Source of the DNA: Candidatus Vesicomyosocius okutanii
GTDB taxonomy: Bacteria; Pseudomonadota; Gammaproteobacteria; PS1; Pseudothioglobaceae
Length of the DNA: 64,000 nucleotides
Reading direction: 5' to 3'
NCBI RefSeq assembly: GCF_000010405.1
Contig: NC_009465.1
Span: forward strand, 868,001 to 932,000
Shown here: positions 12,261-54,762 of the stretch, one piece after another
Numbering within the stretch: position 1 is the first letter of the stretch
Layout: every line of letters begins with the position of its first letter
Notes under the pieces: model-generated
The model's input: the letters and a program-made list of their open reading frames with translations, nothing else
What the model was told of the DNA's origin: nothing
Database searches by the model: none
Made by a program: the position numbers and the translations under genes

Positions 12261-12953
12261 GGTTTAAAATAAAATGAAATTGATGCGTTTTTTCCTAATT
12301 TTAATTTAGTCTAAATTTTTTAATAAAAAACTTTCTTAAAGCGTATCTAATTGGCAAGATTAACTAATAACTATATATTAATCTATATACTGCAATTATT
12401 ATTATACTTTGTTTCAAAAGAAACAACCACAGCAACTTATCCGCCATAGTTATGACACCATTAGTCATCACAATAAACTAGGTAGGGGTTGAATTTTCCA
12501 CTTTCATCACTAGAATCTATCTTATCCACTCTTATTCTCTATTATATTATTTATTACATATCTATTAACAAATGTAAAAGGTTTTATTCTTTTAGTCTAC
12601 TATAATTTGTTAGAATTAAGACTTATATTTATATATTTACTGATAAAAAACATTAAACACATTACCAGGTTAAATTTATTAACTAAAGATCACAAGCTAT
12701 TATACATTTTCACAAGAAACTAAAAAATAAAACTTTAATAACTTGACAAATACTTATTTTAAGTAAATATTATCCTTAATAACAAAAATATATGCTAAAA
12801 TCAGAAGTGCTGTAAAGAATATGCTCATAAAAAAATTAGTTTTGGGTTGCAGCTACTATTTATATCTATGTTGTTGATTGATTCATTGTCGGTTTTCGTA
12901 CTCTATAAAGGTGGTCTATTTTTTCGGTAATTTTTAACTTATAGGAGGACACA
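12261..12953. other. Non-coding spacer and probable long leader of the cold-shock gene
   Basis: This 693-bp stretch has no supported gene. Its 5' part is featureless AT-rich sequence with single DnaA-box-like nonamers (TTATCCACT at 12522-12530). The 3' part, from about 12743, looks like a promoter plus leader for the cold-shock gene and is described in a separate entry. Confidence 0.5.
12743..12953 (+). promoter_or_regulatory. Candidate promoter and ~145-nt 5' leader of the cold-shock gene
   Basis: TTGACA sits at 12743-12748 with TATTAT at 12768-12773 (19-bp spacing). An extended -10, TGCTAAAAT, ends at 12801. Start from the latter would give a leader of about 145 nt, less AT-rich than its surroundings, ending in a perfect TAGGAGGA ribosome binding site. 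cspA-type genes elsewhere have 150-160-nt thermosensing leaders; the length match suggests, but does not show, the same control. Confidence 0.4.
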
Positions 12954-53910: not shown

Positions 53911-54414
53911 TTAAAAATTCTCATCCCAATCAACTAAAATAATTTGATTGTTTATATCTACTTGTATTAAAAATGGAGAAATATAAGGCACCCAGTGCTC
54001 TTTTCCACCCCTAACTACAAGTACGTTATTCGAACCAGTATCAACTAAATTAAACACTTTACCAAGCACAAATTGTGCTTTATTAACTACTTCTAAACCA
54101 ATTAAATCATTCCAGTAGTATTCACCTTCTTTGAGTCTTAATAATTGTGATTTCTTAATATACAAATTAATATCTATATAGACTCTAGCTTGTTCTTTAT
54201 CAAAAATATCTTTGATTTGTGCTACAATAGTTTTAGCTTGCACACGACCTTGTGAAATATTTAAAGTTTGCCAATGACTATCAACATTGATATACCATGG
54301 TTGATAGGATAAAATATTCACCCTTGGATGGGTATGGGATAAAACTTTAACCCAACCATTAATACCAAAAAATCCATTAATCCTCCCGATTAATAGCTTT
54401 TTATTATTAGATAT
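53911..54414 (-). CDS. rimM: Ribosome maturation factor RimM, apparent ATA start
   Basis: RimM binds S19 and helps 16S 3'-domain maturation. Conserved residues run from KKLLIGRINGFFGINGWVKV through YQPWYI and EGEYYWNDLIGLEV to the PRC-barrel end ILVDWDENF. The N-terminal block lies upstream of the first standard start (GTG at 54321). In that frame the only reasonable initiators are ATA at 54412-54414 (giving 167 residues that begin SNNKKLL as in homologues) or CTG at 54433-54435. The ATG has probably mutated to ATA. trmD and rplS do not follow. Confidence 0.85.
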   Translation of the reverse strand: MSNNKKLLIGRINGFFGINGWVKVLSHTHPRVNILSYQPWYINVDSHWQTLNISQGRVQAKTIVAQIKDIFDKEQARVYIDINLYIKKSQLLRLKEGEYYWNDLIGLEVVNKAQFVLGKVFNLVDTGSNNVLVVRGGKEHWVPYISPFLIQVDINNQIILVDWDENF

Positions 54415-54427
54415 TAAAAACTCTGAA

Positions 54428-54471
54428 TTACTCAGCGATTTCTACTGCTTCTGCTATTAATTTAGATTTAA
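54428..54471 (-). pseudogene. Relic of the rpsP C-terminal tail
   Basis: This stretch is out of frame with rpsP but encodes, in the +1 frame, about 14 residues ending AEAVEIAE and a TAA. It ends 13 bp before the apparent rimM ATA. It supports a recent one-base deletion in the A run, or programmed/transcriptional slippage. Confidence 0.6.
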
Positions 54472-54762
54472 TCAAAGATTTTTTGCTGATTTAACAGCAA
54501 TATCTCTTTCACGAATTAAAGGATCTTTAAACTCTTTAACAAGCTGCTTAACACGATCAGAAATTTGAGCACCTTTTGATGTCCAATATGCTAACCTAGC
54601 TTCTTCGATAATAAGCCTAACTTCTTGTCCATGGGTAACTGGATTAAAATATCCAAGTCGCTCAATGTAAGCACTATCTCTACGTCTTCTAGAGTCTGTT
54701 GCAACAATTGAATAAAAAGGTTTTTTCTTGGCTCCGCCCCGAGCTAGTCTAATTTTAACCAT
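54472..54762 (-). CDS. rpsP: 30S ribosomal protein S16, frameshifted C-terminal tail
   Basis: S16 is essential for 30S assembly. The core ([38 protein letters not shown]) is complete. The frame ends at residue 96 after a run of six A (minus strand; 54479-54484). One extra A would continue through [16 protein letters not shown] to a stop at 54428-54430, an acidic/alanine tail typical of S16 extensions. The core exceeds E. coli's 82 aa, so the truncation is probably tolerated. Confidence 0.95.

Follow-up and report, generated by a model that had tools for sequence, protein, structure and literature searches.

In the clam symbiont Candidatus Vesicomyosocius okutanii, the rimM gene has no ATG, GTG or TTG ahead of its conserved domain, and we propose that it starts at a CTG codon which overlaps the stop of the upstream gene rpsP, or the remnant of that stop, by 8 nt. 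We put at roughly three in four the probability that this codon is the start of a rimM gene ancestrally coupled to rpsP and of low output, throughout the genus and probably in a good part of the family. Use of the CTG, the coupling to rpsP and the low yield are what we infer; the observations that bear on them are set out below. The window referred to throughout is the whole stretch of DNA that was analysed, 64,000 nucleotides of a genome of 1,022,154 bases in one contig, and coordinates are those of the window unless another source is named.

Read along the minus strand, the genes at this locus are an open frame at 56203-54827, which from its sequence we take to be purB, then rpsP (54762-54472) and then rimM. 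The rimM frame is open from 54441 to the stop codon at 53913-53911 and its earliest ATG, GTG or TTG is the GTG at 54321; following the TAG that closes it upstream, it reads AAA TCG CTG AGT AAT TCA GAG TTT TTA ATA TCT AAT AAT AAA AAG CTA TTA ATC GGG. The product matches TIGR02273 with an E-value of 1.5e-43 and 148.1 bits, against a curated cut-off of 66.2, which places it in the RimM family. Both PF01782 and PF24986 are found in the protein when it is read from the ATA at 54414-54412, and reading from the CTG merely adds residues. A first-pass annotation of this DNA had described a RimM domain that is in frame and free of stops and has no ATG, GTG or TTG ahead of it. The frame as we read it agrees with that description, as do the three closest sister genomes, which likewise have no standard start ahead of the RimM domain, so that the missing start is not an error confined to one genome. 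The same annotation held that a full reading is possible only from the ATA, a statement that fails on the CTG at 54435-54433, in frame and seven codons further upstream. The features of the locus are collected in Table 1.

Table 1. Coordinates of features at the rpsP-rimM locus of the window.
Feature	Position	Strand	Basis or remark
rpsP (ribosomal protein S16), C-terminal extension truncated	54472..54762	-	TIGR00002, E 1.1e-25; stop TGA 54474-54472
A6 tract, where rpsP leaves the tail frame of its relatives	54479..54484	-	-1 frame translation compared with relatives' tails, by eye
rpsP tail remnant; its last triplet, TAA 54430-54428, is the old stop and overlaps CTGAGTAA	54428..54471	-	
TAG closing the rimM frame upstream	54442..54444	-	sequence
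Proposed rimM start CTG	54433..54435	-	in frame in 12/12 genus genomes and in 31/31 family genomes without a standard start in the usual region
rimM, CTG to stop	53911..54435	-	174 aa if the CTG is read as fMet; open frame, TIGR02273, dN/dS
ATA of the first-pass annotation	54412..54414	-	codon 8 from the CTG; most likely an ordinary Ile codon
RimM N-terminal domain, PF01782	54145..54390	-	residues 9-90 counted from the ATA
Earliest standard start in the rimM frame, GTG	54319..54321	-	would delete the start of the RimM domain
RimM PRC-barrel domain, PF24986	53920..54114	-	residues 101-165 counted from the ATA

Two further observations concern the neighbourhood of the gene. On the minus strand at 54375-54387 within the start region of rimM, a GGGAGG lies just 5' of an out-of-frame ATG that opens a frame of 19 codons (read by eye); it is probably due to chance, since it is not kept in the three sisters. 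The trmD gene lies outside the window, at G000:C1:263329-264003, about 658 kb from rimM (or about 363 kb the other way if the chromosome is circular), so that the usual order rpsP-rimM-trmD is broken in this genome; the trmD match runs past an in-frame TAG in 6 of the 12 genomes of the genus.

The evidence for the CTG comes chiefly from comparison. An in-frame CTG is common to all 12 genomes of the genus and lies seven codons upstream of the position of the ATA (eight in L007). Where rpsP is of full length, the CTG overlaps its stop: GCT GAG TAA in the rpsP frame is read as CTG AGT AA in the rimM frame. When ATG, GTG, TTG, CTG, ATA, ATT and ATC were all scored, the CTG was the only codon upstream of the domain to be shared by all four genomes of the Vesicomyosocius clade, the next shared codon being an ATC at the first residue of the domain. 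Taken within these four genomes alone, the retention of the CTG lacks significance: of 144 four-fold sites in the clade 77% do not vary, and three bases would stay unchanged by chance about half the time, while 12 unchanged bases would have a p of about 0.04.

The comparison was extended to the family, in which 83 genomes were searched, 75 gave a RimM match, 72 loci were read and 68 could be scored; the unread genomes (G015, G019 and G084) have partial RimM matches and, among the 72 loci, three were too short and one contained an N. Each locus was scored for ATG, GTG or TTG in the usual start region, defined as running from 14 codons before the position of the ATA to the conserved Lys-Lys/Arg, a definition that omits the codons between the Lys-Arg pair and the domain, where 18 of the genomes scored as CTG-only have a TTG. 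By this measure 31 of the 68 genomes have no standard start, and every one of the 31 has the in-frame CTG with the overlapping stop triplet as in CTGAGTAA. Among the 36 genomes with a standard start the overlapping CTG is in frame in 5, out of frame in 9 and absent from 22; the one remaining scorable genome, L083, has rpsP and rimM in a single frame. The first-pass annotation had named the CTG at 54433 as one of several alternatives, and its presence in all 11 congeners and in all 31 family genomes without a standard start in the usual region supports this alternative.

No standard codon stands upstream of the ATA position in the open frame of 21 of the 31 CTG-only genomes (one of these frames reached the end of the locus), and in the other 10 the standard codon is at least 17 codons upstream, inside rpsP or its remnant. 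Ten of the 21, nine of the genus with that of the window included and L080, have no standard codon either upstream or just before the conserved domain. The 31 CTG-only genomes are spread over seven genus groups and, on a RimM tree of 67 rows, at least nine changes between the CTG-only and standard states are needed, against 22.2 with shuffled labels. All 10 genomes of genus group g3 have a GTG; in eight of them the CTG lies in a different frame from rimM, and two lack it. Where a shortened rpsP no longer codes through the site, the overlapping CTG is nevertheless kept in L001-L004, L007, L008 and L011, and lost in L078 and L084, both of which have standard starts.

In the relatives the surroundings of the codon also resemble those of a start. 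The tail of rpsP extends in many of them to the CTG overlap, ending exactly there in 23 of the 31 CTG-only genomes, and most of the 31 have GAGG among the bases ahead of the CTG. In 19 of 31 a pairing with the 16S tail at -6 kcal/mol or stronger precedes the CTG, compared with 3.9% of windows in the same rpsP tails; the corresponding Fisher p of 3.5e-18 is nominal, since these windows overlap and their number (about 1,200) was itself inferred. In the four Vesicomyosocius genomes, where rpsP departs from its old frame at the A6 tract, the matches are weak, between -0.5 and -1.4 kcal/mol, and the rpsP stop lies 30-36 nt before the CTG, the values for the genome of the window being -1.4 kcal/mol and 36 nt. 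It thus has neither the Shine-Dalgarno match nor the overlap with a working stop that would mark a coupled pair, and the coupling of rimM to rpsP is on this evidence doubtful in the genome of the window itself.

Codon choice in the tail of rpsP was considered as a further proof of the CTG start and is not decisive. In the 23 CTG-only genomes whose rpsP ends at the overlap the penultimate codon is GCT in 21 and ACT in two, while GCT makes up 22% of the Ala codons of these tails; GCT also accounts for 14 of the 16 penultimate Ala codons of standard-start genomes, so that the preference cannot be credited to the start. The genomes in which a shortened rpsP has left the site uncoded are more telling. 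In 22 of these CTG-only genomes rpsP ends in Glu, which is encoded by GAG in 20 (one genome has GAT), against 9 of 15 among those with a standard start. An intact rpsP puts a coding constraint of its own on the bases of the CTG. The S16 extension of this family is rich in Ala, Glu and Lys and very variable in length (a total of 120 aa in L039 and 272 aa in L080; L005 is a further example), and it is shortened in several genomes.

The initiation machinery was examined as another possible source of an unusual start. The GGG/CCC pattern of the initiator tRNA stem is present in 72 of 83 family genomes and the anti-Shine-Dalgarno pattern of 16S rRNA in 9 of 12 genus genomes, the genome of the window being included in both counts; an altered machinery was rejected, as both elements are of the usual type in that genome. 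The gene for initiation factor IF3, infC, is readable in 9 of the 12 genus genomes, in eight of which (the window genome among them) no ATG, GTG or TTG precedes the domain. These eight have an ATT at the expected place of the start, where L146 has an ATG, and, in the window genome, this ATT lies where we take the E. coli start to be. With ATT in eight of nine readable genomes, the classical IF3-sensitive start of infC seems to have been kept in the lineage.

Two controls bear on the absence of a standard start. Outside the family, a standard start lies 6-24 codons before the domain in 35 of 36 RimM genes, the 36 loci being the best 28 new ones of 107 genomes matched and eight from another search. 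The exception, the gammaproteobacterium L119 (G147), has no ATG, GTG or TTG within 25 codons of the RimM domain, and its rimM frame has a GTA at the rpsP stop. Within the window, 5 of 68 conserved open frames, rimM included, have no standard start in their first 25 codons. The comparison of start with domain covered four of these five (rimM and three others), and in all three others a standard start precedes the family match or coincides with its beginning; the fifth is a frame of 69 codons at 12514-12723. Conservation upstream of first starts was of little use across the window as a whole, where only the five flagged frames were informative, because the intergenic DNA of such close sisters also aligns.

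Other start codons have to be weighed against the CTG, and the ATA, which the first-pass annotation took to lie exactly where the homologous methionine would be and to have arisen from ATG by a single mutation, is the least likely of them. In its favour, ATA is named as a rare bacterial start in the part of PMC4611024 consulted, a weak match of -2.4 kcal/mol lies upstream of it, the congener L007 has an ATG at this position and L087, outside the genus, also has an ATA. Against it, the 12 genus genomes have ACA in seven, ATA in two, TTA in two and ATG in one, so that a methionine there fits L007 alone among the 11 congeners (the others having ACA in seven, ATA in one and TTA in two), and in 41 of 60 rows outside the genus the position codes for His, Gln, Asn or Thr. 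The ATA of L087 is the only one in these rows and their sole ATG belongs to L105, a sequence of 27% identity that is probably foreign and that we counted among the standard-start genomes and omitted from the RimM tree. The TTA is found in L002 and L004, two of the three closest sisters, where it is not a start, so the ATA cannot be a start solution shared by the clade. We rejected it on the strength of ACA or TTA in 9 of 12 genus genomes. The older state of the genus at this position was likely ACA and not ATG, which leaves the proposed mutation from ATG to ATA unsupported, and L007 most plausibly acquired its ATG independently. Comparison of the codon in sister genomes, which had been suggested as a check, thus shows the CTG and not the ATA to be the codon in common, in 12 of 12. 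A start within the domain or right at its edge is improbable as well, whether at the GTG at 54321, at the ATC of the first domain residue or, in other genera, at a TTG. The GTG is the earliest standard start in frame, the ATC is common to the four sister genomes, and 18 of the 31 CTG-only genomes, all of them outside the genus of the window, have a TTG within one or two codons ahead of the domain (L087 was unscorable). A start at the GTG would, however, remove profile positions 1-25 of 84 in PF01782, a stretch to which three of the four solved RimM sequences found align from residue 6-8 onwards; we rejected it because it cuts the RimM domain, and translation from this codon, an option that the earlier annotation had listed, is unlikely to give a functional protein. 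The ATC is replaced by GTC or GTT in L006 and L007, and none of the 18 TTG codons has a match of -6 kcal/mol or stronger ahead of it. Given the best-match sample from outside the family, with starts 6-24 codons before the domain in 35 of 36, RimM normally has residues ahead of the domain and a start at its very edge would be unusual. The TTG could start a slightly shorter RimM outside the genus and is, from this spacing and the lack of matches ahead of it, a weaker candidate than the CTG; because of its presence in 18 of 31 genomes, a CTG start can be claimed with less confidence for the family than for the genus.

Frameshifting or slippage out of rpsP could yield an S16-RimM fusion with no new initiation, an idea to which L083 (G045, genus group g2) lends some weight, as its rpsP and rimM form one frame of 322 codons from the S16 start; it may be a natural S16-RimM fusion, but the genome is a draft whose repeats could have been misassembled. 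Three of the four Vesicomyosocius genomes, moreover, have a -1 frame that runs open from the A6 tract to the old stop. In L003, though, this frame is closed, and in the window genome the rimM frame is shut by the TAG two codons before the CTG while the -1 frame ends at the old stop, so that no fusion would arise there without a further shift and such an origin for RimM is, judged on these frames, very unlikely. In a variant of this idea, ribosomes of the Vesicomyosocius clade would at least reach the CTG through a -1 slip at the A6 tract. It is also highly improbable that rimM is decaying and hardly translated, its missing start being a step towards a pseudogene. The genome is a reduced one, the Shine-Dalgarno sequence and the stop overlap have been lost in the Vesicomyosocius clade and, since deletion of rimM slows growth in E. 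coli (according to a portion of PMC9032327), low expression of the gene may be tolerated. Against decay, the RimM match is without internal stops in all 12 genus genomes and dN/dS, counted from the ATA codon on, is 0.18-0.26 in six pairs from the four-genome Vesicomyosocius clade, where RimM is under purifying selection; in addition, the absence of a standard start predates the clade and is found also in relatives with larger genomes.

A start at the CTG would fit into the following course of events. In the ancestor, ribosomes that had completed S16 would have halted next to a GAGG Shine-Dalgarno sequence within the final codons of rpsP, and a minority of them would have restarted at the overlapping CUG with initiator tRNA. 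A single mRNA would in this way have given little RimM relative to S16, because CUG initiates poorly. Later, in the Vesicomyosocius clade, rpsP was shortened by a change of frame and the Shine-Dalgarno sequence decayed, with the CTG remaining in place; in three of these genomes, L003 being the exception, ribosomes that slip at the A6 tract would arrive at the old stop, and such slippage may still give some longer S16. The ATA would be an internal codon of rimM.

Several known systems resemble the one proposed. The gene for IF3, infC, keeps its AUU start, against which IF3 discriminates, over many species and is autoregulated by its own product. The rimM gene is likewise a translation-related gene that would have a non-standard start over many species, with the difference that it would use CUG and that its link to IF3 is putative. 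Known overlapping gene pairs that are coupled by termination and reinitiation generally use AUG, GUG or UUG for the restart; the CTG-only relatives resemble such pairs in the rpsP ending at the CTG (23 of 31) and in the Shine-Dalgarno match (19 of 31), and would differ from them in the codon used and, in the Vesicomyosocius clade, in having no overlap with a working rpsP stop. In E. coli the output of rimM is held below that of rpsP, and the window genome has the same first two genes as the E. coli rpsP-rimM-trmD-rplS operon in the same order; in the window genome rimM may be kept low by a weak start codon, and trmD does not adjoin rimM. For E. coli, initiation at rimM is described as controlled by mRNA structure in work cited in a passage of PMC5318159, and a passage of PMC10931766 speaks of no information on the regulation of the rpsP-rimM-trmD-rplS operon.

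Rare start codons are a familiar phenomenon; it is unusual for a CUG start to be conserved across many species. The extracts of the literature consulted give CUG as 0.024% of bacterial starts (PMC11497404), its output from a reporter as 0.86% of that from AUG (as cited in PMC11497404) and switches to CUG as 2 of 61,358 ancestral AUG, 1 of 5,080 GUG and 1 of 2,468 UUG starts (PMC5622118). Among the matches listed in a search of open-licence PubMed Central titles and abstract openings, we found no report of a CTG start of rimM. Since IF3 discriminates against starts other than AUG, GUG and UUG (as stated in a section of PMC4611024), rimM might itself sense IF3, the CUG being a kept regulatory device through which RimM, a 30S assembly factor, rises when IF3 is scarce relative to 30S subunits. 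We regard this as rather unlikely; if true, rimM would be a second IF3-sensed gene beside infC, and subunit maturation would be linked to the balance of initiation factors across the family.

A gene caller limited to ATG, GTG and TTG would probably truncate rimM in these genomes or overlook it. If the proposed start is correct, a CUG start common to the genus, and perhaps to seven genus groups, would be a rare natural test case, bearing on how bacteria use a poor start codon and on why CUG persists here while side branches have gained ATG, GTG or TTG. It would bear also on how the non-ribosomal genes in ribosomal operons are kept low.
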